Shown here piece by piece: positions 1-21,111 of a stretch of DNA of 21,111 nt. The first letter of the stretch is position 1; each line of letters starts with the position of its first letter. Origin of the DNA: a virus; IMG/VR virus record IMGVR_UViG_3300010160_000278, positions 1-21,111 of that record; one strand, 5' to 3'. The notes beneath the pieces are model-generated. The model was not told where the DNA came from and searched no databases. It saw only the letters and a program-made list of their open reading frames with translations. Made by a program: the position numbers and the translations under genes.

Positions 1-1221
1 TAAAGACTTTGGAAGCTTTGGAAGACTTGGAATATTATTTTTACCACTTAACATATTTGCATGACGTATAACAAACTCAGGATCTCTAATATTGTCACCA
101 TTACCAACAGCTGCATTAAACTCCCTTTCAAGTTGCTCTGGAGTTTTTCCTGTCTTTTTAACCATAGTTTTTAAAAACTCTTCTTCTCCAATGTTATCTG
201 ATACATTACTTAAATATTTTAAAGCTTCTTTTCCATCAGTAAAATATGGCTTAACAAAACGTTTACCAATACCTTTAGCAGTTTTAATAGCACCACCAAG
301 AGGATCAAGTCCTAATACTCCTGCTCCAGCAGAAAGTGCTAGAGATGCAGCAATACCTTTTGGATCTCTTGCTGCAATTGATTCTCCTAGAGCATCTGTT
401 AACGATCCTATATATGTAACTGGATTAACATATTCATCAAATACGTCTACAGCTCCTCCAGGTGGAGCCCAACTTGCTGGAAGAATATTAGATAATCTAC
501 CTTTATCTTCTAAGTGCCAACTACCAGGAGTATTTAAATCTCCCTTTGTAGCTTTGTTCTTTTTTCTTTCTGCTAGTTCTTCTTTAGCATTAACCAATGC
601 TTTCTTTTGACCTTGGTCATATTTTGCAGCATTCTCTAGTTTCTCTCTCTCTGTAAGTTTTAATACAGGAGGAGCTACTCTTGTAGCATCTTGACGCATT
701 GGTTCAGGATACTTATCTAACCAACCACCTTCTTGCATCATTGGATATTCTGTAACCTTCTTACCATCAAATTTATAATCTTGATCAGGCTGCATCATCT
801 TTGTATCACCTGTATCAGATACACCAAGAACAGGATAGTCAACTCCCTGCATAGTGATGTCATTAGAACCTATCTCTGTCACCTCACCTGGGTGAGCCCA
901 TTGACCCATGTCATCTTTGATTACAGAGCCATTCTGAGCACTTGCTTTTGTCTTCTTAGCATACTTGCCATTACTAGGAGCAGGGTCTTGTGTACGTGCG
1001 TACATGAATCCTACAGCACCTGGTAATGCACCACCCATAGCAAATCGTCCCCCCCATGCAGGAGAATAGTCTCTACCCTTGGTATTATATCCAAGTCCTA
1101 CAAAGTCAGGACCTACAGATGCTTTTGCATCATTGTAGTTACTTTGTTTGCCATAGTTATCCTTAGTCTTTTTCTTTAAGACCAAGCCACCTTGTTCATA
1201 TTTGTCTAACCAATTTGCCAT
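1..1221 (-). CDS. Probable virion cargo (ejected) protein, N-terminal 407 residues, runs off left edge
   Basis: The frame is open from an ATG at 1219-1221 to the window edge, so the 3' end is missing. The start overlaps the previous stop as TAATG. The protein begins MANWLDKYEQGG, and the tryptophan motif recurs near residues 165-171 as GGWLDKY. Residues 57-75 are Gly/Ala-rich (GGRFAMGGALPGAVGF). Residues 100-160 hold a Gly/Asp-rich segment (DDMGQWAHPGEVTEI, then VDYPVLGVSDTGDT). Residues 185-225 are charged and probably helical, and residues 290-325 form an Ala/Gly-rich, weakly hydrophobic stretch that could contact membrane. No enzyme motif is visible. In crAss-like phages the genes after the muzzle encode capsid cargo proteins delivered with the DNA, and the WLDKY/GG style recurs in large virion proteins of Bacteroidota phages. 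The cargo role is inferred from position and that style. Confidence 0.6.
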   Translation of the reverse strand, partial: MANWLDKYEQGGLVLKKKTKDNYGKQSNYNDAKASVGPDFVGLGYNTKGRDYSPAWGGRFAMGGALPGAVGFMYARTQDPAPSNGKYAKKTKASAQNGSVIKDDMGQWAHPGEVTEIGSNDITMQGVDYPVLGVSDTGDTKMMQPDQDYKFDGKKVTEYPMMQEGGWLDKYPEPMRQDATRVAPPVLKLTEREKLENAAKYDQGQKKALVNAKEELAERKKNKATKGDLNTPGSWHLEDKGRLSNILPASWAPPGGAVDVFDEYVNPVTYIGSLTDALGESIAARDPKGIAASLALSAGAGVLGLDPLGGAIKTAKGIGKRFVKPYFTDGKEALKYLSNVSDNIGEEEFLKTMVKKTGKTPEQLEREFNAAVGNGDNIRDPEFVIRHANMLSGKNNIPSLPKLPKSL

Positions 1222-2087
1222 TACTTGTAAGAGATTTGAGATGGTGCAACAATGAATTGAGAAACAATGTGAGCTGTAGAGCTATCATCTAAGATGTGTC
1301 TCACCTTAAGATCCTTAGCTCTTAGTGGTTCTTTCTTAAATGATCTTTTTCCATAATCCATATTTGCTTGGTTTACAACCTTATCTATTGATAAAGACTC
1401 ACAGCTTGTTGTAAACAAAGGTACAGATTTACTTTTAATTAATCCCCAGAAAGTATTATATTGATAGAAATTATCTGACTTAGTATAAGTGATAGTTTTA
1501 CTTTCAGTATTATAGATTGGGTAGGTTAAGTATTGTTGTAGGTTATGCATTGGCTTTGGTACTAATTCTAGTATACCAGTAGACTGTTGACTATTGTAAA
1601 GAACAGCTTTGTTAAACCATTGATTATCAACACTTATCTGAGCATTATCATTAAACACACCATCTGGGATAGGTAGATAATTAAACACCTTACTGTAGTC
1701 TTTTATATTCTGAAGTATTTCATCATAGCTTTGATAAGCAAATGGATACTCTATAATGTAAGGTTCTACGTTACCATAGTATTTATTGTAGTTAACTACA
1801 TCAGTTAAGTGTCTCCATAAAGAACCTGTATTACATTCTGTGTAGGGTAATGCAGCAAGCTGTTCTATAGTGGCAGTGCCAATAGTAACTTGTAAAACTG
1901 TATGGCATTTACCTGTAGATGTTATAGTAATTGTAGTGACAGAATTATCCACACTAACAGTATACCCATCAATAAGATTTTGTTTGGTTATATCAGTGCC
2001 CAAGACAGTCCCTAAGTTATCAGAGATATCAAAGGGTCCAGTTCTGCCACCTGAACATGTTAATCTTATTATTACTGTTTTAGCCAT
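1221..2087 (-). CDS. Muzzle C-terminal-like protein with an N-terminal TGPF domain (288 aa)
   Basis: Residues 1-70 form a small beta-rich domain (RLTCSGGRTGPFDI, then GYTVSV, then STGKC) that matches in layout residues 1-72 of the protein encoded at 11782-12351. Residues 85-288 resemble the C-terminal end of crAss-like muzzle (stabilization) proteins: YYGNVEPYIIEYPF, FNKAVLYNSQQSTGILEL, YPIYNTESK, then QANMDYGKRSF and a basic stretch before the end. In relatives I remember, this region is fused to the large muzzle chain. Here it follows that gene after 13 bases with its own ATG, and it is coupled through TAATG to the cargo gene. It probably acts at the distal end of the tail with the muzzle. 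No signal peptide or membrane segment is visible. The domain likeness is from memory. Confidence 0.65.
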   Translation of the reverse strand: MAKTVIIRLTCSGGRTGPFDISDNLGTVLGTDITKQNLIDGYTVSVDNSVTTITITSTGKCHTVLQVTIGTATIEQLAALPYTECNTGSLWRHLTDVVNYNKYYGNVEPYIIEYPFAYQSYDEILQNIKDYSKVFNYLPIPDGVFNDNAQISVDNQWFNKAVLYNSQQSTGILELVPKPMHNLQQYLTYPIYNTESKTITYTKSDNFYQYNTFWGLIKSKSVPLFTTSCESLSIDKVVNQANMDYGKRSFKKEPLRAKDLKVRHILDDSSTAHIVSQFIVAPSQISYK

Positions 2088-2100
2088 CTTTCTTATTTAT

Positions 2101-5100
2101 TTAACATGGATTTACATTAGTTGGAACTCCTGCGTTATCAATATTTCCACTGTATTTAGTACCTCCACCTGTAGGAACCCAAGCATAGTAAAATCCATCT
2201 TGACCTTCAAATCTTATATTACATAATTGATCTACAAATAACCTAGTTACTAAATTACCAGTTGGTTGTGCAGCACTAGCATAAACTGTTTGAATCACTG
2301 GGTAAGCACATGCAAGAGCTGCATCAGCTTGACCCACTAGATTTAAATCATATGAAGTATATGCTGAACCAGTACAACCTGCCCAGTTACTCATTACACC
2401 TAAACTAGAAATATTAAATGAATAATGATACTTGTAATCTGACTCTGACACAATAAACCACTTATATCCACCACCATTAAATAATGTACTATCTCCAGGA
2501 GTTGCATATCTGTAAACTGTCTGAGTAAAGAATGGTACTATTTCCATATCTGTAAATATACTAGATGGTATTACACTGCTTCCAGGGAAATTAGTATTAC
2601 ATAAATCTGTAACAGGAGATGTCGTAGATCTAGATACAGCATACGCATATCTAGTTGTTGTTGTAGTTGTTGTAGTTAAACATGTTGTACCACCTGCAGA
2701 TGCAATACCTATTGAAGGAGAAGCACTTGGATCAGTTAATATGCTATTGATTATAATAAATTGTGTATTACGTCCAGGAATAGGATTAGTAGGATCATTA
2801 AAATTAGGTGGAACAAATCCAAATACTAATTGACCAATTACTGGATTACTAGGTCCTCCATTAGTAAATGCTGATGACCAGAATAGATCACCTGTATAAC
2901 ACTCTTCTAGTCTAAACCATATGTCAGGGAAAGCATTACATTTAGCATTACCTTCACCACCTGGAACTAGTCCACCAGTTCTTGTTTGTGTATAACTATT
3001 AGAGCAAGGATTTTGATCTTCCTCTTTATAATACTCATCATATAAACCAGTTACTGCATTGTACACACAAACATAGTTTTGAGCCTCATCTAATTGTACC
3101 CAGATAGGAGATGTATCACATACATCTACAGGAGAAACAATGATTCTTGTTTGTTCTACATTTGTATAACAAGGGTTAGTATTTGTTTGCAATTGGAAAC
3201 TTGTACATGTACGTGTAGCAGGATCAGTCACTTCACAGTAAGGATCTCCTGTATTCACCCATGCAGGTTCATAATCACATGGTGCTCCAGTTCCTAAAAG
3301 ATTAGTTTCAATGTTTCCAACTGTTGGAGAACAAGGATTGTTATCTATATAGTTTTGATAAGCATTACACTCAACACAATATGCAGCACCATATACTACA
3401 TAGTTAGCTGCAGTGTTACATATATTAGGTGTAACTTCTATATTTCTAGTATCATTAAATGTTGGAGAACTTGGATTGATATCAATTTGTTCTTGATATG
3501 TTACACAACTTCCTTCACCACAATATGGAACTCCTACATTTTCCCAATATGCATCAGTATCAGCATATATAGCTTCACCATTTAAAGCACACTCCAATGG
3601 AACTGCTGTAGTAGTAGTTGTAGTGGTTGGAGAAGGTATCTCTGTAACAGCTATTGCTGCCACTTCACATCCTTCATTTAATCCAGAATAGTAGAAACCA
3701 TTTTCTCCTATGTAGAAATTAGGTATGTATGTGTGGAAACTTACCCAAGCTTTGGTATTCAAGTTAAATGATGCAGTCCATGACTTATTGCAGAAATATT
3801 CTACATCTGTTAGGTTTACATATCTTATAACTGATGTATTACCAGCCACTGGTTGATTTATATAAAACTTCTGTAAAGCTTCATTATAGTATATTTGCTT
3901 ATTAGGTTGAGGGATATAATCTAACTTAGTTATAATTATTCTCTCAAACTTACTATCATATACACCATGTAAACCAAGACCATTAAAGTGGTTATCTATA
4001 TTTGCTGTAGGGAAGTGTCTTAATATTTCAAATGCTAAATGGTCTGTAAAGAACCTGTTTAGACCACTACCAAACCCTGAGATATCTATTGCTTTGGTAG
4101 CATTAGCTATCATAAATATTTGACCTCTCTTAGCATCTATTGTTATTTGTCCATCAGGTAGTTTAAGTAAAAACTTGTTTTGAGAACCTACATAACCTAG
4201 GTCAGTTTCAGCATAATCAATTGCAGGAGCTGATGTAAATAATGTAGGGTTACCTAAGAAAGCTGACTGAGGATTACTTGTGTTCATTGTCAATAAGTTA
4301 CCATAAAGCAATGATTTGTTTTCAAATCTAGCTAGGGTAGCCTTATTCTGTATACCATCTAATGATACTAACTTGCCATAGTTTTGAGGGAAGTCAAAGA
4401 AACTTATTGGACGATATATCAACCAACTATTAATTCTATTATCAGAATAACTTTCTTGTGGATCAGAGTATATAGCTCTGAATGGGAAGTATGTAAAGCA
4501 AAGTTGCTTTATCCAGTCTGAAGGTAAATGAGAGAAATAGTTCTCTGTGTTTTGTTTAGAGAAAGTGGTATTGTAATAATATGTATTATCAAGTACAATA
4601 GGAACTCTGCTTTCTTGGAACCAAGTATCAGGAATACCTGAGCTCACGTGTGGATAGAAGTCACCCTCTAGGTTATTAAATGCTTGACGTAAGTCTACAT
4701 TAATAGAACTCTCTACATAGAAATAAGGAATACCATATGCAAAAGTGTACATCTTACCATCATATATGTAGTTTTGTGAACCAGTTAATACAGTACCTGG
4801 AGCAGGAGTTGTAGAAGAGGTAGTGGTAGTTGTACTAATATTATCCACTATATTATCATTAGGACAGTCTAAATAGTGAGCTTTGGTAGAAATGATATTC
4901 TTCATCAAAGTAGCTCCTACATAGTAATCAGCTAATATAGATCTAGCAGAATACCAATATTGTGGATAGGCTACATTACCTAACTCATCATAGTAAATAT
5001 CACTATCATCTGGAGCTCCCACTCTATTATCAATAAAGAAAGGAAGTTTAGTTTTGAATCCAAACTTACCAATATATGTATCACCACCAAATACAACTTC

Positions 5101-8100
5101 AGTATCACCTAATGGAAGAGAACTAAATATTCTTTGGAATCCTGTATCAATAGTTTGATAAGAATATATTTGTCCATATTGATTATTATTAATAGTCTTT
5201 ATTGAAGCATAATAAGATACAACTTTTATATCTTCTTGCTGCTCAGGAGCACTACAGTTATTTGCTTGAGAAATAGTAAATCTTGAATCATCAGATATCT
5301 GACTTACACCTGCTATATATAAAGAAGGAGTTTGATTTGGAAAAGGTAAAGGATCAATAGGATTTACTACCCCAGTTCTAGTTTCAATAGTTTTAGTATA
5401 TATTGAAGACTCTCTATTCCAGTTATTAAGATCATGATTATCACCTACGTTCTGTACACCTGGGAATACATACTGACACTTATCAAGTTGTCTTTGTTTA
5501 ATACCTATATTACCAGTTAGAGGATTAGCAGCAGCATTCTGTATATCTGCATTATAGTCATAGCTAGAGATGGAGTTAAATGATTGTGCAAAGTTCTTTC
5601 TACTAATACCATTTAGGTAGATTTGTAGATAAGATTGATAGGCTGTAAACATTGCTGTAGCACTAAATCCTCCTAGGTCAGCTATCTTCTTGCTAGAGTT
5701 TAAGGCATCTATTTGAGTTTGTCTGGTGAGAAGCTTGTACATAGAATGCTTCATTACCTCAACAAAATGAGCTCTTCCACCACCAAACAATACACTTTCT
5801 AATTTAAGAACATTACCTAATGTAGGTTGTCCAAAAGAAGTTTCTGGTGAATTAAATACCTGTCTGTATTTAGATTCAATACTACTAAATCCATCTAAGT
5901 TATTTGGAAAACAATTAATATTTACTTTACTACTTTCCACTATAGTGTAACGATTACATCCTGTTACAAATGTAGGAGGACCTATTGAATTAATTGTCAC
6001 TGATGTATTAAATGGTACAGTGATAGTTTGATTTGCTAAAGTTATAGGATCTACATAAGTAAATTCAGGTCTTGGAGTAACTACACATTTATAGTTTGAA
6101 GAGATTATATAAGTACTAGATGTAATATTTTTAAATGTAGCTGCTCCTGTATTTACAACAGGAAGTGTAAGAGAACATATTTCAGTGGTAGCTGTAGTAA
6201 AATCTTTACTTGATACAGTGCCTGTATAACAATCTGTATATTGTAATGCACCATTAGCTGTAGCTGTTACTTGGAAAGTATCACATTGAGACATGTAAGA
6301 ATTGCTCTTCTCAAGTAAGAATGGATCTTTATCAAGATCATTATATGGATAGTTAGGATAGTAATAGTCTGTACCTTGTCTAGTATACTTGCCTACATTC
6401 CTCAATATACCTTTAGCAATAATAGATTTGTTTGCACTTCTATTACCTCTTACTATTTTAAATCCAACAATTGAAGCTTTTTCTTCAGTTGTTAAAGTAG
6501 ATGTTTGAATTAAGAACGCTACTTGTTGTACATCTATTTTTACACCTATTGGATAGATGGCATTAGAAGTTTGCATCACTGGTTCTATCTGACCACCTAC
6601 ATATGTAATAGGAGGAGTCTCAAAGTAAGGAGAAACTAATACATCAGGAAATTTGTGATGTCTAATTTTCTCACCAGCAAGGTCTCCCCACACATCTACA
6701 TTACAAGGATATTCTTCATCTTGAGCTTCCCAATAGGCAAATTCTCCAGATTGATATGGATATGCTTGTCCTATATTTTGAGTGCTAGAAACAGGATATG
6801 TAGTGGATACAGTGGCAGTGTTATATATTTTCCAATAAGGTTGAGGAGCTCCATCTCCTATGTAATCTGCATTAGCTGTAGTTACATCTGGCTGAGATAA
6901 CTCCTGAGCATTTTTAACTCTACCAGGAATATGAAAGCCATCTGTTTGTTTACCATTATCTAGTAAAAAGACTATCTCGAATGCATATACCTCATCTCTT
7001 AGATATCCTCTTAAATTAGCTGTATAGAAAGGATCTGCATAGCTATTACCTGCTGGTAACTTATAAGTTTCCCATTCTAATGTTATTCTACTAGCAATTG
7101 ATTGATAATTAATTCTATCAATAGAAGTAAGATTGTCCCAAACTATATAGTCTTGTACACTTGTAACATCTTGTGCAATATCATAATAAGGGAACTTCTC
7201 TAATATATCACCTAAGCTTAAAGGTATTTGTGTTTGGTTTTGACCTGAATAGGTGGTTGTTGTTACTTTGTCTTGGATCTTAAAAGTTCCTACAAGTTCT
7301 ACACTGGTACCATTATTAATAGTCTTAATAACAGCTAAATTAAAATATTGGAAGTATCCTGTAATATCTACATTACCAATACTTAACAATATAGACTTTC
7401 CTACAGAGTATTGAAAATCAGGAGTAGTTATCTCTGTATTTGCAATAGATGTGGGATTAGTTACAGAATAATAGGATGTATATCCATCTCCTGAAGCATT
7501 ACAATATTGAACAGCAAACTGATATGTACCAGCTTGTAAATCTCCACCTACAGCTGTTCCAGTAATATCTATGCTAGGAATAGAGAAGTTAGGTTGTACT
7601 TTTAACTTATTACAGTCAAGTACAGGAGTGACAATTGGATCACAACTTGAATCACCCACATAAGTTGAAATATAGGGAACTTGTTCAATGTTTATATATC
7701 TTCTTGGATTCAATCCATCAGTCCAATATACCTCAGTGGTACAGTTTGTAATCTTATGTACAGACTTATGAATTGGATAGTTTATATCAAAGTTTAAGCA
7801 TACAGAGTTAGCACATACAGTGATTTCTAAATCAGGGTATTCTGTACATAGTGTATGATATACACAATCATTATTATCCATATATCCAATTTCACTTCCT
7901 CCTGTTTCAGGATTAGCTAAGAAGAATATGTGTTTGTTTTTCTCTTGAATGAAATGAGTTCCAATTAAATGATATCCTGCAGGAAACTCTAAACAAATTT
8001 CATTACTTGGCTCATTTTGATAACTTACAGAATTAGCATCAAAGTTTTCTAATGCTCCATTTAGGGCATAAGAAAGTTTACCCTTCTGTATTTGGTTTAC

Positions 8101-8181
8101 AGAAGAATCCATATCTAGTCCAACTCTGCCAAGATTATACTCTTGTCTTATGTTAGATTGTCCTTCTTGGTTATCTGCCAT
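2101..8181 (-). CDS. Muzzle / tail stabilization protein, crAss-like (about 2,026 aa)
   Basis: This giant structural protein should form the terminal muzzle of the short tail and gate DNA release. The first ~1,500 residues follow the crAss-like muzzle pattern: KLSYALNGALENF near the N-terminus, YWTDGLNPRRYINI near 150, FAYGIPYFYVESSINVD near 1150, then LIYRPISFFDFPQNYGKL, TDLGYVGSQNKF, DAKRGQIF near 1350 and GLHGVYDSKFERIIITKLDY. Beyond that the chain is modular. Poly-Thr linkers lie near 1116, 1518 and 1837. A Cys-rich NPCS-type repeat spans about 1541-1751, and two related beta modules form the end. I chose ATG 8181 (MADNQEG) because it overlaps the upstream gene by 11 bases; an ATG at 8232 is open but would overlap by 62. 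The usual muzzle C-terminal end is absent and appears in the next gene. Confidence 0.85.
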   Translation of the reverse strand: MADNQEGQSNIRQEYNLGRVGLDMDSSVNQIQKGKLSYALNGALENFDANSVSYQNEPSNEICLEFPAGYHLIGTHFIQEKNKHIFFLANPETGGSEIGYMDNNDCVYHTLCTEYPDLEITVCANSVCLNFDINYPIHKSVHKITNCTTEVYWTDGLNPRRYINIEQVPYISTYVGDSSCDPIVTPVLDCNKLKVQPNFSIPSIDITGTAVGGDLQAGTYQFAVQYCNASGDGYTSYYSVTNPTSIANTEITTPDFQYSVGKSILLSIGNVDITGYFQYFNLAVIKTINNGTSVELVGTFKIQDKVTTTTYSGQNQTQIPLSLGDILEKFPYYDIAQDVTSVQDYIVWDNLTSIDRINYQSIASRITLEWETYKLPAGNSYADPFYTANLRGYLRDEVYAFEIVFLLDNGKQTDGFHIPGRVKNAQELSQPDVTTANADYIGDGAPQPYWKIYNTATVSTTYPVSSTQNIGQAYPYQSGEFAYWEAQDEEYPCNVDVWGDLAGEKIRHHKFPDVLVSPYFETPPITYVGGQIEPVMQTSNAIYPIGVKIDVQQVAFLIQTSTLTTEEKASIVGFKIVRGNRSANKSIIAKGILRNVGKYTRQGTDYYYPNYPYNDLDKDPFLLEKSNSYMSQCDTFQVTATANGALQYTDCYTGTVSSKDFTTATTEICSLTLPVVNTGAATFKNITSSTYIISSNYKCVVTPRPEFTYVDPITLANQTITVPFNTSVTINSIGPPTFVTGCNRYTIVESSKVNINCFPNNLDGFSSIESKYRQVFNSPETSFGQPTLGNVLKLESVLFGGGRAHFVEVMKHSMYKLLTRQTQIDALNSSKKIADLGGFSATAMFTAYQSYLQIYLNGISRKNFAQSFNSISSYDYNADIQNAAANPLTGNIGIKQRQLDKCQYVFPGVQNVGDNHDLNNWNRESSIYTKTIETRTGVVNPIDPLPFPNQTPSLYIAGVSQISDDSRFTISQANNCSAPEQQEDIKVVSYYASIKTINNNQYGQIYSYQTIDTGFQRIFSSLPLGDTEVVFGGDTYIGKFGFKTKLPFFIDNRVGAPDDSDIYYDELGNVAYPQYWYSARSILADYYVGATLMKNIISTKAHYLDCPNDNIVDNISTTTTTSSTTPAPGTVLTGSQNYIYDGKMYTFAYGIPYFYVESSINVDLRQAFNNLEGDFYPHVSSGIPDTWFQESRVPIVLDNTYYYNTTFSKQNTENYFSHLPSDWIKQLCFTYFPFRAIYSDPQESYSDNRINSWLIYRPISFFDFPQNYGKLVSLDGIQNKATLARFENKSLLYGNLLTMNTSNPQSAFLGNPTLFTSAPAIDYAETDLGYVGSQNKFLLKLPDGQITIDAKRGQIFMIANATKAIDISGFGSGLNRFFTDHLAFEILRHFPTANIDNHFNGLGLHGVYDSKFERIIITKLDYIPQPNKQIYYNEALQKFYINQPVAGNTSVIRYVNLTDVEYFCNKSWTASFNLNTKAWVSFHTYIPNFYIGENGFYYSGLNEGCEVAAIAVTEIPSPTTTTTTTAVPLECALNGEAIYADTDAYWENVGVPYCGEGSCVTYQEQIDINPSSPTFNDTRNIEVTPNICNTAANYVVYGAAYCVECNAYQNYIDNNPCSPTVGNIETNLLGTGAPCDYEPAWVNTGDPYCEVTDPATRTCTSFQLQTNTNPCYTNVEQTRIIVSPVDVCDTSPIWVQLDEAQNYVCVYNAVTGLYDEYYKEEDQNPCSNSYTQTRTGGLVPGGEGNAKCNAFPDIWFRLEECYTGDLFWSSAFTNGGPSNPVIGQLVFGFVPPNFNDPTNPIPGRNTQFIIINSILTDPSASPSIGIASAGGTTCLTTTTTTTTRYAYAVSRSTTSPVTDLCNTNFPGSSVIPSSIFTDMEIVPFFTQTVYRYATPGDSTLFNGGGYKWFIVSESDYKYHYSFNISSLGVMSNWAGCTGSAYTSYDLNLVGQADAALACAYPVIQTVYASAAQPTGNLVTRLFVDQLCNIRFEGQDGFYYAWVPTGGGTKYSGNIDNAGVPTNVNPC
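2651..2676 (-). repeat. Poly-Thr linker tract 3 of the muzzle gene
   Basis: Eight threonines in a row encoded by mixed ACA/ACT codons, giving a GTTGTA-like repeat on the plus strand. It joins the Cys-rich repeat region and a GIASAGGTTC end to the two final beta modules. Confidence 0.8.
2930..3560 (-). repeat. Cys-rich NPCS-type protein repeat in the muzzle (about four to five copies)
   Basis: Units of about 45 residues share the order W-x-NxGxPYC, a TYQ/AYQ/SFQ strand, D/T-N-PCSPT (or NPCY, NPCS), an xTR/ETN strand and a C-xx-P/Y tail. Clear examples carry YCGEGSCVTYQEQIDINP, YCVECNAYQNYIDNNPC and YCEVTDPATRTCTSFQLQTN, followed by more divergent units near 3010-3130. The DNA has diverged, so the repeat is old rather than a fresh tandem duplication. 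Similar repeats occur in surface proteins of Bacteroidota and their phages. Confidence 0.7.
3608..3630 (-). repeat. Poly-Thr linker tract 2 of the muzzle gene
   Basis: Seven threonines after IPSP mark where the conserved muzzle body ends (GENGFYYSGLNEGCEV) and the modular Cys-rich repeat region begins. Confidence 0.8.
4804..4837 (-). repeat. Thr/Ser-rich linker tract 1 of the muzzle gene
   Basis: STTTTTSSTTPAPG lies within the conserved muzzle body, just before the YDGKMYTFAYGIPYF segment, and probably forms an exposed loop. Confidence 0.75.
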
Positions 8182-9127
8182 ATCTTGAGCTTCTGTTTGG
8201 TAATTCATATTGTGCAAAGCGTTGTAAATCATTTCTTACTCTTCTTTGCTTAGTCCATACATCTTGTTTCTTAATCTCAGTGTAAGCCATAATAAAGGCT
8301 TCTTCTGAAAGTTGCTTATAGTAAACTAACTTAGCTTGTATTTGGTTGAATGTCTCATCATTGATTTGGTTAGATAAGGTTTCAAAAACTTTATATTTAA
8401 TAAAGGCTTCTACATATTCTCTTATACGATAGTTATCAGGAATCAATTGATTCCCTACACAATCATAGTCTGTAGCATAGAAAATCATATGAACAATACC
8501 ACAGCTGAAGTTTGTGACAAACTTATTATCTCTAATATCAAAGCTATCATAACCAGCACTTCCTGGAGTGAACTCGTGCACAGGGGGTGCATTTGTATAA
8601 AACTGCCAAGCATCTGTATAACTTACATCACATTTACCTTGGCAAGATATATTGCCTGGTTTTAATAAATACTCTTTTCTTATACCTCTAGCTATCTGTT
8701 GATTGGTTTTATATACAGCTTGGATGATGTCAGGCATACACGTAGGACATCCTGTTGTACATTGTGGATTTGTACATGGTACTCCACCACTAATAACAGG
8801 AGAAACTTGTATAGTTGTTTGGCTAGCTGCCTGAGAATAGAATGAGTTAGCTGTCTGATAGGGAAGCTGAGGAATCTCTGTACACATCCAGGCTTCTCTA
8901 ACAGCAAAGAAGTTGTCAGGAAGTCTAGCTTCATATCCAGAAATATCTAATGTCTGTTCAGCAATAACATAACTTGATCTACCCATCTTTTGTAGACACT
9001 TGTCTAAATAGGTGGGGAACATTAAATCATCAACTGCTCCTGTATCAAAGTAGGATTTTAACTCTTCTTTAACAATTGAATAGATTGGCTCAGGAGAGAT
9101 AAAGTTGTATCTGTAATAGTATGCCAT
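8171..9127 (-). CDS. Neck ring protein next to the muzzle (crAss001 R1-like, 318 aa)
   Basis: The protein opens with a short helical segment typical of podoviral neck or adaptor proteins: YSIVKEELKSYFDTGAVDDL, then a helix ending LDKCLQKMGRSS. A beta section follows (DISGYEARLPDNFFAVREAW). The middle, near residues 115-131, is Cys-rich (CTNPQCTTGCPTC). The C-terminal third is helical (YRIREYVEAFIKYKVFETLS) and ends with a basic stretch. Gene order, just before the muzzle, matches the ring-protein position of crAss-like phages, whose rings share the P22 gp4-like adaptor idea of stacking below the portal. The start is an ATG in an A-rich leader, six bases after the previous stop. Which ring it forms is inferred from order alone. 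Confidence 0.7.
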   Translation of the reverse strand: MAYYYRYNFISPEPIYSIVKEELKSYFDTGAVDDLMFPTYLDKCLQKMGRSSYVIAEQTLDISGYEARLPDNFFAVREAWMCTEIPQLPYQTANSFYSQAASQTTIQVSPVISGGVPCTNPQCTTGCPTCMPDIIQAVYKTNQQIARGIRKEYLLKPGNISCQGKCDVSYTDAWQFYTNAPPVHEFTPGSAGYDSFDIRDNKFVTNFSCGIVHMIFYATDYDCVGNQLIPDNYRIREYVEAFIKYKVFETLSNQINDETFNQIQAKLVYYKQLSEEAFIMAYTEIKKQDVWTKQRRVRNDLQRFAQYELPNRSSRYGR

Positions 9128-9610: not shown

Positions 9611-10347
9611 TAACTAGTTGGTTTAGCATTAGGAGCCTGACCATCTATACCTTCAAATGTCATGTCTGTTTTAATGCTAAAGTAAGTAGATAATAGTTTT
9701 TGAGATGTTAACTCTAATACTTGTTTTTCTAAATAACCAGGACATCCAAACTCCTTATCCAATGGATTCATACAATAGTCTTCATCGCTCACTGTAGGAG
9801 TTGGGCCACATGCACAGTCTGATGGGTATAGTATCTCATTAGGAACATCTTCTTCAAAGAATGCAGAAATTCTCACTGAGTGCAAATTAGGATTATTAAT
9901 ATATAAATATCCTCCATTTGCTATCCAGTAATATTGTTCAGCTCTAATGATAGGTAGCTTTAATAAATTTAAGTATCTGTTAATTGTAATCTCTTTAAAT
10001 CTTTTTCCTTTACCACCCATAGCGTTGATAGAATATACACCTTGTATTAGATATTGATAGTTTCCTTCACTGATGCGAGGAAGTTTGAATCTGCTTCTTG
10101 CCACTTGACAAGGATCAACATACTCACAGCAATCAGAAATAGGAACCTCTATCATCTCTAAACAAGGAAGTGTTTGGAATACAGTGTCTGTAGCCCAAAG
10201 CTTTCTGAGATTTGTTTCTCTCTTTACCAATAAAAATGTATTGTTTCTAACCTCAGACGCAACAACCCTATCAGTGATAAGGTTATCTGTTGTTAATAGT
10301 TTGTGCATTGCACGAACATCTGAGACCATTTTTCTTAATGTAGCCAT
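9610..10347 (-). CDS. Neck ring / structural protein (crAss001 R2-like, 245 aa)
   Basis: The order of elements suits a virion adaptor: an N-terminal helix (MATLRKMVSDVRAMHKLL), a basic linker (REVRN-like VASEVRNNTF, VKRETNLRKLW), a beta core with CLEMIEVPISDCCEYVDPC near residues 62-80, then GVYSINAMGGKGKRF and a strand-rich C-terminal half (QYYWIANGGYLYINNPNL, VRISAFFEEDVPNEIL). Cysteines are frequent (near 70-80 and 175-200). It is coupled by TAATG to both neighbours: the metallophosphoesterase upstream and the HU/IHF-like gene downstream. In crAss-like phages this slot holds a ring protein. I see no catalytic motif. The family assignment is from memory and gene order. Confidence 0.65.
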   Translation of the reverse strand: MATLRKMVSDVRAMHKLLTTDNLITDRVVASEVRNNTFLLVKRETNLRKLWATDTVFQTLPCLEMIEVPISDCCEYVDPCQVARSRFKLPRISEGNYQYLIQGVYSINAMGGKGKRFKEITINRYLNLLKLPIIRAEQYYWIANGGYLYINNPNLHSVRISAFFEEDVPNEILYPSDCACGPTPTVSDEDYCMNPLDKEFGCPGYLEKQVLELTSQKLLSTYFSIKTDMTFEGIDGQAPNAKPTS

Positions 10348-11597
10348 TATAAATACTGTTTGAATATATTTGTTATTCCTTCATCATAATCAATTAGGAA
10401 TCCTGTTACTTCTGCTTTAGACATTGTATGACCATTCTTATCATCCCATAGACTCTTAGAATTTGAGAATGCTGAGATTTGGTAAAACTTAATACCATTG
10501 AAATCATGACTCACCTCATGGTGTTTATCTCCTGTGAATATATAGAACTTATCATGTAAAGACCACCCTGCTCTATATTCTATTGGAAACAATGCAGCAA
10601 GCTTTGCAGGTTTAATAGCATCTCCATGATTAAACATCAATGCTGATTGACCATAGCTTACATACTTTCTATACTTAGGAGAACAATCAAATGTTACTCT
10701 CTCTGTATTTCTAAAGTAGGTTTGTAACCAATTAACCATATGCCATCCTACAAACTCATCATGATTACCTGCTACATATACTACCTTCACTTCATGACCA
10801 TACTGTAATAACATTGTAATCATTAAGATCTCATGTCCACATATGTACTCGAATGATGTTTGATATGTGTGAGTGTTTGTTTGAGGAGTTCCTTTTGTAG
10901 TCATACCACTGTATTCACTATTGAACTCATCAGACCCAATGATGTATGTAATTTCTTCTAAGTTGTTTGAAAGCTGAGCTTGGTTAGCTATCAACTCCAC
11001 CTTGTACATGATATGAGCTAGTCTATTAGTAACATCATTGTTACCATCTATGTCATATTTGTTCAAGTGAGAATCCTGTTTGTTGATGACTAACATACCT
11101 TTTGGTTTGTCAAAGTCAACCTTAGGACTCATAACCTCTTGACTTACAGGCTTATATGAAGCTAAAAAGTCTACAAACGCATCTTGAAAAACTTGTTCTG
11201 TAGACTTCTTCCCTAACCAGGCTTTGACTTGCCAATGTGGATTCCCACCATTTCCCCAGTAGTTCTGTACGTACTTGGTGATTTCCCATTTGTCTGTGTC
11301 AATCTTACACTTTACTATGAGCTCATCTAAGCTCTTAATTTCATCTTTGCTATTGAAGACAATCTCTCCTGTTCCTTTAACAATGTCTTCTTCAAATCTC
11401 ACTATTGTTTCCTCTAGCTCAGAAACATAGTTACCCACCTCTGCCACTTCTTCAACAATTTCTCTGTTTCTTAACTCTACCAATAACTCATCAACCTCTA
11501 ATTCTGTAATTCCAAGCTTGTCAGCGTAGAACTTTTTACTCTTTTTCCAATGTAGGATTTCTTCTAGCTGGTTCAGTAATGCTTGATTCTCAGGCAT
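10347..11597 (-). CDS. Calcineurin-like metallophosphoesterase with N-terminal HTH-like segment (416 aa)
   Basis: The C-terminal two thirds carry the binuclear-metal phosphoesterase signature in order: QDSH (Asp175, His177), GSDEFNSE (Asp223), the phage-type TTKGTPQ at 233-239, GNHDE at 277-281, NHGD (His324) and TGDKHHE at 355-361. The family hydrolyses phosphodiesters or phosphomonoesters, often in nucleic acids; the substrate here is unknown. Residues 11-45 look like a helix-turn-helix (WKKSKKFYADKLGITELEV), and 55-75 are acidic and helical. The ATG at 11597 is preferred over an upstream TTG at 11657 because a promoter overlaps that TTG and the ATG falls about 25 bases after the expected transcription start. 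The gene heads the ring-muzzle unit and is coupled by TAATG to the next gene. Confidence 0.85.
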   Translation of the reverse strand: MPENQALLNQLEEILHWKKSKKFYADKLGITELEVDELLVELRNREIVEEVAEVGNYVSELEETIVRFEEDIVKGTGEIVFNSKDEIKSLDELIVKCKIDTDKWEITKYVQNYWGNGGNPHWQVKAWLGKKSTEQVFQDAFVDFLASYKPVSQEVMSPKVDFDKPKGMLVINKQDSHLNKYDIDGNNDVTNRLAHIMYKVELIANQAQLSNNLEEITYIIGSDEFNSEYSGMTTKGTPQTNTHTYQTSFEYICGHEILMITMLLQYGHEVKVVYVAGNHDEFVGWHMVNWLQTYFRNTERVTFDCSPKYRKYVSYGQSALMFNHGDAIKPAKLAALFPIEYRAGWSLHDKFYIFTGDKHHEVSHDFNGIKFYQISAFSNSKSLWDDKNGHTMSKAEVTGFLIDYDEGITNIFKQYL

Positions 11598-11625
11598 ATG
11601 TAGTTTATTTTGGTTAAAAATTAAT

Positions 11626-11658
11626 GTAAAGATAGGAACTATTTCTGAATTTCCCAAA
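11626..11658 (-). promoter_or_regulatory. Bacteroidota-type primary sigma promoter
   Basis: On the minus strand TTTG (11655-11658) is followed by 20 bases and then TATCTTTAC (11626-11634). This matches the known Bacteroidota consensus of TTTG at -33 and TAnnTTTG at -7, with one mismatch in the last position of the second element. The first base of RNA would fall about 20-25 bases before the ATG at 11597. It lies just after an intrinsic terminator, so it would restart transcription with the metallophosphoesterase and run into the ring and muzzle genes using host RNA polymerase. Confidence 0.7.
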
Positions 11659-12362: not shown

Positions 12363-13217
12363 TTAACAAAGTGATAATCCTGCTGAGTTTGATAAGTAAG
12401 TAACATTATTTTGGTATGAGTAACAAGATCCATCACAAATACCTGATTGACAACAGTTTGCATGACTAAGTGTATAAAATGTATATTGTCCTGAAGTATT
12501 TCCTGAATTTACATTTAATGTTGCATATGCTGTTCCTGAACTTTCACAAAGTGGATTATCTTCTATATTAGCAAAATCATATGAAAATTCAAATGTTATA
12601 GTATATGGAGCAGCAATTGGATTACCATATTGATCTTTTAATGTAACTGTATATACGTCTTGTTGATCAACAGTTCCATTACAACCATCAGGAAAAGTTG
12701 TATTATTACTTAATGTAAAACATGTTAATACTGGAGGAGGAGGAGGAGGTATTGTAGTGGTAGTTGTAGTAGTTGTACATGCTGCACATCCACCACCATA
12801 CATAGTTGCAATATTAGTTGGAGCTCCTGATATATTTATATTTACAGCATTTCCTCCATATGATAAAAGGTAGTTACCATTAGCAAATGTTACAAATCCT
12901 GATGAAGTAAATATAGTAGAAGTACAAAATGTTGAAGTATTTCCTAATACTGTTACACTACCTGCTGGACTATAACATGCTATATATGAAGTGCTACCAT
13001 AACTAACTGATGCATTAAAAAATGTTGTATTTGTTATAGATTGATATGGAGGACATTGATTGTTTGCATATCCAACTAAAGGACCACTATCTACATAATA
13101 ATTACTAACTATAAATTGTTTAGTAGCAATTTGATTACCTGTAGGTGGTGTTCCTATTGGAGTAAGCCCCATTGTTGTTAAATCTGTATATGTTACTAAA
13201 GCATTAAATGTTTGCAT
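12363..13217 (-). CDS. Probable fibre-associated protein with poly-Thr/poly-Pro hinge and Ig-like domain (284 aa)
   Basis: An N-terminal beta-rich domain (residues 1-145, Asn/Ser/Thr/Tyr-rich, with TYTDLTTMGLTPIG near the start and GGGCAAC at its end) is joined by eight threonines, then Ile and six prolines to a C-terminal domain. The latter contains VYTVTLKDQYGNPIAAPYTI, the pattern of bacterial Ig-like (Big_1-type) repeats, and ends in a Cys-rich section (CCQSGICDGSC). Poly-Thr plus poly-Pro should make a stiff extended hinge. The start overlaps the collagen-like fibre stop as TAATG, so the two proteins are probably made together, and this one may attach to or tip that fibre. No enzymatic motif is seen and the receptor is unknown. 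Confidence 0.55.
   Translation of the reverse strand: MQTFNALVTYTDLTTMGLTPIGTPPTGNQIATKQFIVSNYYVDSGPLVGYANNQCPPYQSITNTTFFNASVSYGSTSYIACYSPAGSVTVLGNTSTFCTSTIFTSSGFVTFANGNYLLSYGGNAVNINISGAPTNIATMYGGGCAACTTTTTTTTIPPPPPPVLTCFTLSNNTTFPDGCNGTVDQQDVYTVTLKDQYGNPIAAPYTITFEFSYDFANIEDNPLCESSGTAYATLNVNSGNTSGQYTFYTLSHANCCQSGICDGSCYSYQNNVTYLSNSAGLSLC
12732..12776 (-). repeat. Poly-Thr plus poly-Pro hinge in the 284-residue protein
   Basis: TTTTTTTT, then Ile and PPPPPP. The proline part is a pure (CCT)n-type run (GGAGGAGG on the plus strand), prone to slippage, so its length may vary between related phages. Confidence 0.8.
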
Positions 13218-14959
13218 TATTTCAATTTAGCTTCTAATTCAGAAATACGTTTTTCTAATTGAGCAATCTTCCAGCTATGTACCTGTGTATAATCCACTAC
13301 TAAGAAACCATCTTCTTTTTCTTCTACAGCATCTGGTAATACATTCTGTACTTCTTGTGCAATATATCCCCAATGAGTTTTATTATCTTTTGCTTCATCT
13401 TTCCAAGTAAATGCTACAGTTTCTACATTGTTTGATGGAATAGCTGTAATTATATCTTTAAGTCTTAAGTCAGAGTTTTGGAAGAAAGAATCTGCATATA
13501 TTGAATTACCACTTACATATACAGTTGAGTTTGTATATCCAGAGTTTGCATTAGTACATATAACTATTGCTCCTGCAGTTGCTGGAGAGATAGATGTAAA
13601 TCCAGGGCCAGTAGGGCCAGTAGGGCCAGTTGCTCCTTGGGGACCTTGGGCACCTTGAGGACCAGTAGGACCAGGTCCTCCTGTTGCTCCTTGAGGTCCT
13701 GTAGCTCCCTGTGGTCCAGTTGGACCAGGACCTCCTGTAGGACCTTGTGGACCAGTAGCTCCTTGTGGACCTTGAGGGCCAGTGGGACCAGCAGCACCAG
13801 AAGTACCAGCTGATGCTGATGTGCCAGCTGTTCCTGTACTTGTTCCACTAGAAGCAGATGTACCAGAACTAGCTGATGTACCTGCTGTAGCTGAAGAACC
13901 TGAGCTTCCTGAACTTGCAGATGTACCTGATGAACCAGAGCTTGCAGATGTTCCTGATGTAGCACTAGATCCACTTGTTCCTGCTGTTGCAGAAGTACCA
14001 GTTGAACCTGAAGTACCACTTGTTCCATTACCACCAGCAGCTCCAAATAAGTTTACAGCCCAAGCTGCATATGTTCCTGCACCCACTGTAGTGGTAACGT
14101 TAACCACCATAACACCTGTACCACTATTGTAAGAGGTAACAGATCCTTGCATTGTATTACTTACATCATATACTATGATGACTGTCTGTGCAACACTATA
14201 AGCTAATCCTGTACCAACAGTTAATGTTCTAGTACCAGTTCCTATTAATAAAGATGTAACAGAAGATGTTAAATATCTATCTCCATCTAAACCAGCTGTA
14301 CCTGAAGAAGCTGAAGTACCATTTGTACCACTAGACGCAGATGTTCCAGATGTACCAGTAGTACCAGTAGAACCAGAAGTACCAGAGGTTGCATCTTGAC
14401 CTGAAGTACCAGCAGTAGCATCACGACCTGATGTACCTGTGGTACCAGAGCTACCATCTGTACCTGAAGTTGCAGAACTTCCTGAACTTCCAGAAAGACC
14501 AGAAGAACCAGATGTACCAGCAGTTCCAGAAAGACCACCAGAACCTGAAGTACCATTAGAACCTTCTCTACCAGAACTTCCAGACGTACCATTAGATCCA
14601 GAGGTACCACTACTACCAGCAGCACCAGCGGCACCGTTACTACCTGAGCTACCAGATGAACCAGAGGTTCCAGATGAACCTGTAGCACCTGAACTTCCAG
14701 ATGTTCCAGAGCTTCCTGTTATACCACTAGAACCAGAAGTTCCAGAGGTACCATTAAGACCAACAACACCATTGCAAAGAGCGTCATCTATTTTTGATAG
14801 AGCACAGTTTAAGTTATCTCCAGTGTGAATTCCTGAACAAGGAAGGTTGGGTCCATTATATGTAACAAGACCTGATACTGTTTCACAAGGAACTGAACTA
14901 CAGTTTTCATTAGGATGATAGTAAGCATTGTAACAAGGATCTCCAGGATTGCAAGCCAT
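13217..14959 (-). CDS. Collagen-like tail/head fibre with C-terminal Peptidase_S74 chaperone (580 aa)
   Basis: Residues 1-66 are a Cys-rich N-terminal domain likely to anchor the fibre. Residues ~67-225 are Gly-Thr-Ser and Gly-Ser-Ser triplets. A beta module at ~226-303 ([18 protein letters not shown], then [11 protein letters not shown]) resembles small modules seen in other phage fibres. More Ser/Thr triplets follow, with Ala often replacing every second Gly. Residues ~388-452 are true collagen-like [13 protein letters not shown]. The end is an S74 intramolecular chaperone: SDLRLKDI places the Ser496/Lys501 dyad of this self-cleaving family, followed by [27 protein letters not shown] and a terminal coiled coil ([12 protein letters not shown]). 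The chaperone should trimerise the fibre and then cleave itself off before Ser496. Confidence 0.85.
13606..14760 (-). repeat. Collagen-like and Gly-Ser-Thr triplet repeat coding tract
   Basis: Nine-base and longer imperfect repeats encode Gly-X-Y triplets in two blocks (about 14290-14760 and 13606-14045), separated by a non-repeat module. The block nearest the 3' end of the gene uses Pro/Gln/Ala in X and Y; the other blocks use Ser/Thr. On the opposite strand the repeat gives artificial Pro/Glu/Val-rich open frames. Confidence 0.85.
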
Positions 14960-20188: not shown

Positions 20189-21111
20189 TTAGAATTGAGG
20201 AATTTCTTCTATCAATACTGTACGAGATAAATCTTCGATAAATACATCACAACGATCTTTCATCCAGATCTCATATCCAGGGAATTTGTTTGCAGACTGC
20301 ATTCCTTGAGACTTAGCAAAACCTAAGTGGCTACGAGTTCCATCAATATAACCCCAAGTCATAGAAGGAGCACCCTTCATACGTACTTCACGAATGTTGT
20401 TAACCATAGAACCATCGCTCATAGGGCTTACATCAAATACCATGAATACAGGAGTTGATTTTTTATTTTGACCAAATTCTAAGTTTGTTTGAGGAAGATC
20501 CAACTCTTTCAAGTGAATTAACTCAACACGACCAGTCTCACGAGTAACCATTGCATCGAATGCAAAGTTATATGTGATATGTTGGCCCTCTCCTTGCATA
20601 TATCTGTTACCAGAATCTGCCATGAAAGTAAGACCAGAATTTAAAGCATCATTCTTTAAAGCTTGTTGGAATACGTCAAAGCCAGCTTCATTAGTGTACA
20701 TTTTTACACGTCTGTCTTTAACATCCACACGTCTGTAGAATAAGTCACCAAATACAGAACGAATTAAGTTCGCAGTGAACTCACCTCTGTTGTACTGTAC
20801 TAAGTTACCATTGTTACGCATTCTGTGGTAAACACCAGCAGATGTACGCTTTAAGTTTTGTTGAGAACCATTAGTCTTTACAGTTCCAGGCTTAGCCCAG
20901 ATCATACGCTTAACTTTTAATTCTAACATAGACTTACGCATCCAGAACTCAATAAATGGTTCCCACTTAACATCGTTACGAGTTAAAGGTAATTGGTTAC
21001 GTATTTGAGGAGCATATACTAAGATATCTAAAGGTTTGCCAGAAGCATCTCTCATCATCTTGTCATCAGCCCACTCAGTGATTTTGTGCTCATAACCATA
21101 TGCAGAACCTA
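20189..21111 (-). CDS. Major capsid protein, crAss-like HK97 fold, C-terminal 306 residues (5' end outside window)
   Basis: The frame is open from the right edge, and an internal ATG pair at 21053-21058 is not the start because the in-frame codons upstream (EHKITEWADDK) continue without a stop. Visible features fit crAss-like major capsid proteins: FIEFWMRKSMLELKVKRMIW followed by AKPGTVKTNGSQQNLK, then YNRGEFTANLIRSVFGDLFY, RRVKMYTNEAGFDVFQQALK (the family's TGEYG-type axial segment), a beta stretch VFMVFDVSPMSDGSMVNNI, and the C-terminal MTWGYIDGTRSHLGF with IWMKDRCDVFIEDLSRTVLI. The product forms the icosahedral shell. The gene is followed by a stem-loop-rich spacer. The terminase and portal genes are expected beyond the right edge, as in other crAss-like genomes. 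Confidence 0.85.
   Translation of the reverse strand, partial: GSAYGYEHKITEWADDKMMRDASGKPLDILVYAPQIRNQLPLTRNDVKWEPFIEFWMRKSMLELKVKRMIWAKPGTVKTNGSQQNLKRTSAGVYHRMRNNGNLVQYNRGEFTANLIRSVFGDLFYRRVDVKDRRVKMYTNEAGFDVFQQALKNDALNSGLTFMADSGNRYMQGEGQHITYNFAFDAMVTRETGRVELIHLKELDLPQTNLEFGQNKKSTPVFMVFDVSPMSDGSMVNNIREVRMKGAPSMTWGYIDGTRSHLGFAKSQGMQSANKFPGYEIWMKDRCDVFIEDLSRTVLIEEIPQF

Follow-up and report, generated by a model that had tools for sequence, protein, structure and literature searches.

The gene at the left edge of the window (the whole stretch of 21,111 bases analysed here, which is the entire IMG/VR record) encodes a protein that consists of a constant, mostly disordered carrier, comprising a WLDKY-type motif, a PGAVGFTYAR module and a 68-residue β-domain, to which exchangeable payloads are joined. 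The family to which it belongs is highly variable, and in the window copy the payload changes at the second motif. As a class, it is very probably a polyvalent modular virion protein, and its status as virion cargo is fairly well supported. We give roughly even chances to the more complete reading, in which an environmental crAss-like phage carries it in the virion as a modular polyvalent protein and ejects it, and the motif is a docking or packaging tag. The WLDKY-type tag appears to be undescribed so far: searches of open-licence PMC papers for WLDKY and similar strings returned nothing on such a motif, which is no proof of absence.

The gene lies at positions 1..1221 on the minus strand, as do the parts of it given below and the two adjoining genes at 1221..2087 and 2101..8232. 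Its reading frame runs from 1221 to 1 with no stop ahead of the left edge, so that 407 amino acids are kept and the 3′ end is lost; the payload of this copy is not recognisable because the gene is cut there, and it is the relatives that show how the missing end looks in other phages. The first-pass annotation had seen WLDKY twice in this protein, and both copies are indeed present, one at residues 4-8, followed by EQGG (1198..1212), and one at residues 167-171, preceded by GG (709..723), the latter being the payload switch point. The constant PGAVGFMYAR module (residues 62-97; 931..1038) and the constant β-domain (residues 98-165; 727..930) lie between them. Downstream of the second motif are a pre-payload segment with a hydrophobic Gly/Ala stretch (residues 226-320; 262..546) and the start of the payload (residues 323-407; 1..255), which has nearly no match in the relatives. 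WLDKY is the sole pentamer repeated in the 407 residues. None of 20,000 shuffles of the protein contained WLDKY twice, but 1,767 of them contained some repeated pentamer, so the repeat within this single protein is suggestive only. Pfam and PHROGs did not recognise the window protein, apart from a single PHROG that matched residues 1-19 at E = 0.067.

Relatives were gathered by scanning IMG/VR with the window protein (51 loci, with six search patterns, one of them holding the N-terminal motif) and with the aligned conserved domain (the best 80 of 481 relatives kept). The loci hold 130 domain-carrying ORFs, 85 once contained copies are removed, and 80 of these 85 are complete at both ends. Removal of near-duplicates left the reference set of 77 complete relatives, which includes L053, from a phage collection, and L052, in which the domain is split. 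Their lengths range from 193 to 2054 amino acids, with a median of 828. Each ORF was started at the first ATG following a stop, and some N-termini may be wrong (probably that of L016). No motif-bearing member was found in the phage collection searched. Among 89 candidate stretches from bacterial genomes there was one partial match, on a short MAG contig; this domain fragment (L132, 8291-8365) belongs to a Sphingomonadaceae MAG and the contig is probably a mis-binned phage contig.

The first-pass annotation had named absence of the motif from homologues as a result that would count against it. The motif is kept: the W-L-[DNS]-K-[YF] type, in the strict form WL[DNSEKG][KNQS][YF], occurs 185 times in the 77 proteins, compared with a mean of 0.64 and a maximum of 5 in shuffles. 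The looser pattern W[LIVM]xx[YFL] is found in the last nine residues of 74 of the 77, in the first 14 residues of 35 and in the first 60 of 67; a C-terminal motif is lacking only from L052, L085 and L053. The N-terminal placement is partly biased, since one search pattern contained the N-terminal motif; of the 40 relatives found by the domain search only, all but one (39) end in the C-terminal motif, and a motif is present in the first 60 residues of 34. The 53 internal motifs tend to flank the β-domain, with 11 after it and 15 before it at a distance of at most eight residues (1.1 expected). The motif is also frequently adjoined by GG, which stands ahead of it in 60 of the 66 C-terminal copies and in 42 of the 53 internal ones, and behind it in 22 of the 35 copies within the first 14 residues. 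This GG is what would be expected if the motif were a processing site, with a head-maturation protease cutting at GG, trimming the tags and freeing payload units from a polyprotein. The targeting sequence of about ten residues in the T4 internal proteins is likewise removed after packaging according to the part of the literature consulted (PMC7697877), and HExxH payloads occur in 29 of the 77 relatives. We nevertheless regard processing as unlikely: a cut at the very C-terminus, where the motif stands, would free only about seven residues, many copies have no GG on one side and no protease is tied to the motif.

The first-pass annotation had further proposed that the motif is shared by several cargo proteins, and this part has to be abandoned, as within each phage the motif is restricted to a single gene. 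The 654 other ORFs of the same loci (656 rows minus two truncated copies of the family gene) contain two isolated, chance-like matches of unrelated look. When 28 records were searched whole, the pattern occurred in 23, and 34 of its 35 matches were inside the family ORF. The 35th, in record G017, was considered as a second motif protein and rejected: the contig starts with the last part of this gene as it occurs in another strain, and the match lies there. The contig ends of this record (L259 and L023) carry differing versions of one gene region, which suggests that strains are mixed in the assembly. A scan of IMG/VR with the motif only (the motif, one codon and a stop) gave at least 120 stretches. 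Among the matches listed, 102 of 120 reading frames contain the β-domain, 12 extend beyond the stored stretch, one is probably due to chance and five are relatives devoid of the domain (L165, L173, L223, L243 and L248). The first of these, of 614 amino acids, is encoded straight after a clear crAss_MUZ muzzle (E = 3.9e-135) and has LysM and two motifs at its end.

As for the other parts of the carrier, the PGxxGxxYAR module is present in 67 of the 77 relatives, invariably ahead of the β-domain. The β-domain has near-invariant positions over its 68 residues and is confidently predicted as a six-stranded β-fold (mean pLDDT 92.3). A Foldseek search of the PDB with this domain gave no match at E = 0.001 or better; a VIA fold comparison gave a best Z of 4.8 (56 aligned residues, r.m.s.d. 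2.5) and also listed cupin-like entries, and in a viral library the best four matches include the ‘Structural protein’ of Cellulophaga phage phi4:1 (E = 1.3e-4). Homology of the β-domain to the 1003-residue protein encoded downstream was examined and rejected (hhalign E = 0.73). In L005, which at 193 amino acids is the shortest of the 77, everything outside the β-domain is predicted to be disordered in a weak model from 15 sequences (mean pLDDT 50), and such disorder around the motifs is as expected for linear motifs. Interchangeable heads stand before the first motif, zinc-ribbon-like in 25 of the 77 relatives and of the KAKxxL...LTxKQ kind in at least 11.

The exchange of payloads can be followed at the DNA level. 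The window and L002 share 93.8% identity that extends from the upstream gene through the second motif and stops there. In the reversed window, two separate blocks of similarity to L032 meet at 20373/20374, some 15 bases ahead of the second motif, and these blocks are 873 bases apart in L032. Residues 172-322 of the window protein are found again in L032, L082, L058, L014 and L064, and the pre-payload segment occurs in 11 of 75 relatives ahead of differing payloads, such as an ADP-ribosyltransferase (ART) in L082 and HExxH in L032; past about residue 322 there is nearly no match, with one weak overlap with L119 (E = 5e-4) reaching residue 339. Over the whole family, 12.3% of the ends of internal similarity are close to internal motifs, against 4.5% expected, and 34.1% are close to Gly-linker strings, against 8.7% expected, enrichments that are purely descriptive because the ends are not mutually independent.

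One may wonder at this stage whether the motif is a mere joint, that is, a conserved seam for the homologous recombination of payload cassettes, kept by exchange and having no binding role. The breaks with L002 and L032 at or just before the second motif and the enrichment of similarity ends near internal motifs are in line with this, as is the near-fixation of some N-terminal and internal motif codons (for instance, Leu is TTA in 31 of 31 N-terminal copies). However, the motif is also kept at both ends of the protein, where no cassette follows, and plain Gly linkers mark the similarity ends more strongly, so a tryptophan motif is unnecessary for a seam. The codons of the C-terminal motif, moreover, show a variety near the gene-wide level, although that of Lys is nearly fixed, and this synonymous variation indicates that selection acts on the motif as a peptide. 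We therefore hold the joint reading to be quite improbable. A recombination signal in the DNA as the sole cause is similarly disfavoured by the codon variation, the fixed Leu TTA counting the opposite way.

The payloads themselves are diverse, and the kinds suggested by sequence are zincin-like HExxH domains, ADP-ribosyltransferases, peptidoglycan-acting domains and histidine phosphatases. HExxH occurs in 29 of the 77 relatives, compared with 0.5 in shuffles. Pfam was scanned at E = 0.01 with 22 members taken singly (21 of the 77 and the truncated L033), giving ART-PolyVal in one, His_Phos_1 in three, YkuD in one, LysM in one and two weak matches below cut-offs; 15 of the 22 had no match at this threshold. 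The other 56 relatives (alignment A2) were scanned at E = 0.001, and the matches were DUF6973 (four), ART-PolyVal (two), and His_Phos_1, YkuD, LysM, GNAT and M91 (one each, M91 below its cut-off). With PHROGs, the same 56 matched phrog_24249 ‘tail protein’ five times, two transglycosylase families once each, an endolysin once and other unnamed families, while NCBIfam contributed no more than names of the phosphatase type and weak single matches here and there. Disparate domains are combined in one chain, as in polyvalent proteins: L015 has His_Phos and an HExxH region, L082 has ART-PolyVal and HExxH, and L095 and L094 each have several HExxH regions. Some of these payloads (LysM, YkuD, transglycosylase and lysozyme types), together with the location of the gene directly after the muzzle genes and the ‘tail protein’ matches in five of 56 members, would suit a fixed tail-tip or cell-wall-degrading tail protein rather than ejected cargo. 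The ADP-ribosyltransferase, M91-type and GNAT-type payloads instead suggest cytoplasmic targets, and the carrier is predicted to be disordered, which makes a fixed tail protein very improbable in our view.

As to its genomic setting, the motif gene belongs to the minus strand of the window, which bears a virion block of the crAss-like type. Matches above cut-offs were obtained for crAss_MUZ, CrAss_Ring_1 (PF24228), CrAss_Ring_2 (PF25702) and Crass_capsid (PF23898); that for CrAss_Ring_3_4 is below its cut-off. The muzzle protein (2101..8232) matches PF25731 crAss_MUZ with E = 3.4e-33, which bears out the location after the muzzle given by the first-pass annotation, and it also matches phrog_37948, the family of the phi4:1 muzzle homologue gp042 (E = 1.6e-94). 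Between the muzzle and motif genes is a gene for a 288-residue protein (1221..2087) whose match is to phrog_15100, a muzzle-like virion family, at the C-terminal end of that family. The C-terminal part of this family forms a separate gene here, and the adjoining muzzle matches its N-terminal part. The motif gene stands between the muzzle genes and conserved virion genes, and this order is kept: leaving out members without enough flanking sequence, a relative of the 288-residue protein is encoded directly upstream in 74 of 75 relatives, the 1003-residue type directly downstream in 70 of 75 and a 924-residue type within 7 kb in 56 of 57. Elsewhere in the window, 13217-14959 encodes a collagen-like protein that has a Peptidase_S74 intramolecular chaperone domain at its C-terminus, several genes near it contain threonine runs, and a DNA repair exonuclease-type gene (10347-11657; phrog_704, E = 2.9e-43) is located within the virion block.

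The link to virions comes from phi4:1, in which the muzzle homologue gp042 is followed by gp041, gp040 and gp039, all three annotated from experimental MS/MS. The β-domain is found in gp040 as a distant relative (HMM E = 4.5e-10), Phage_lysozyme2 and two HExxH are found in gp041, and gp039 matches the family of the 924-residue protein, encoded two genes downstream of the motif gene (hhalign E = 1.3e-11). Homology between the body of gp040 and the 1003-residue protein is not claimed (E = 0.09). In the same slot of Leptolyngbya phage Lbo-JY46 (L053), the protein joins the β-domain to a region that resembles a transglycosylase (E = 0.001, below cut-off). The listed host of this phage is cyanobacterial, yet it has a crAss-like capsid protein as well as the β-domain, and we may ask whether a Bacteroidota contaminant is its true host. 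As for crAss001, the downstream 1003-residue type matches gp45 weakly, over a short glycine zipper (E = 1.7e-5), whereas the 924-residue protein as a homologue of gp46 was rejected (E = 0.43); PDB sequence searches with both downstream proteins found nothing. The motif pattern is absent from phi4:1, Lbo-JY46 and crAss001, the last also lacking the β-domain, so the motif is not generally required for such proteins to enter the virion. As to the ejected cargo protein with a packaging, processing or assembly signal proposed by the first-pass annotation, virion cargo is fairly well supported, through gp040 and its two MS/MS-annotated neighbours; the presence of the window protein in the virion, its ejection and the signal function we infer.

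A docking or packaging tag is the best reading of a short motif in a disordered chain that stands at both ends and at the joints and is conserved as a peptide. The carrier, with its terminal WLxKY motifs, PGAVGFTYAR module and small β-domain, would hold exchangeable enzymatic payloads whose putative activities are directed against the cell wall and, once ejected, probably against targets within the host cell. WL[DN]K[YF] would be a short linear tag that docks each end of the chain and each joint to a virion component, for which the muzzle or tail barrel, the portal and the capsid interior are candidates, and a payload placed between tags would thereby be loaded and delivered. More tentatively, WLxKY may be a portable loading code: a bracketed payload would be docked in the tail barrel or capsid and then ejected, recombination at the tag would add effectors, and the system would be an independent, two-ended counterpart of the T4 targeting sequence. 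If this is so, a conserved tag on a hypervariable payload gene predicts which proteins are loaded; it is a peptide to be sought near the muzzle or portal, and it marks a large store of phage effectors directed against bacterial hosts.

Polyvalent proteins have been described as injected multidomain proteins, with ART, zincin-like peptidase and lysozyme domains among those named (Iyer et al., 2017; PMC5512222). In the sections of that paper concerned with them, the polyvalent proteins of phages and conjugative elements likewise combine disparate domains in one polypeptide, including ART-PolyVal itself, HExxH peptidases, lysozymes and GNAT, and those of phages are likewise encoded among late virion genes. 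The same sections mention no short motif bracketing the units, whereas here a constant carrier with terminal motifs is found in crAss-like phages; the string ‘crass’ has zero occurrences in the main text. In phi4:1, gp040 and gp041 similarly place a β-domain and lysozyme plus HExxH after the muzzle homologue, in MS/MS-annotated proteins, but they are two adjacent genes instead of one and have no WLxKY motif. The cargo proteins C1 and C2 of crAss001 (gp45 and gp46) also come from a gene block right after the muzzle and their ejection has been proposed, but unlike the motif family they have neither the motif nor the β-domain, and our family profile (A4) has no significant match to gp45 with hhalign (E = 0.13, probability 0.5). 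What is known of the choice and delivery of cargo in crAss-like phages comes, in the passages on cargo of the crAss001 structure paper, from cryo-EM fragments of one protein: cargo was located in the capsid and tail, in agreement with the corresponding part of a review (PMC10136315), and a 14-residue segment with a helix near the muzzle, of uncertain assignment, was considered by the authors to be probably gp45 (PMC10172136). Finally, the capsid targeting sequence of T4, as presented in the relevant passages of PMC7697877, is likewise a short peptide at a protein terminus, for which a role in loading variable proteins has been proposed. It is N-terminal, differs in sequence and is removed by the maturation protease, whereas WLxKY is found at both ends and internally. 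By analogy, and with terminal placement as the only similarity, this T4 peptide is the nearest working analogue of a WLxKY tag.
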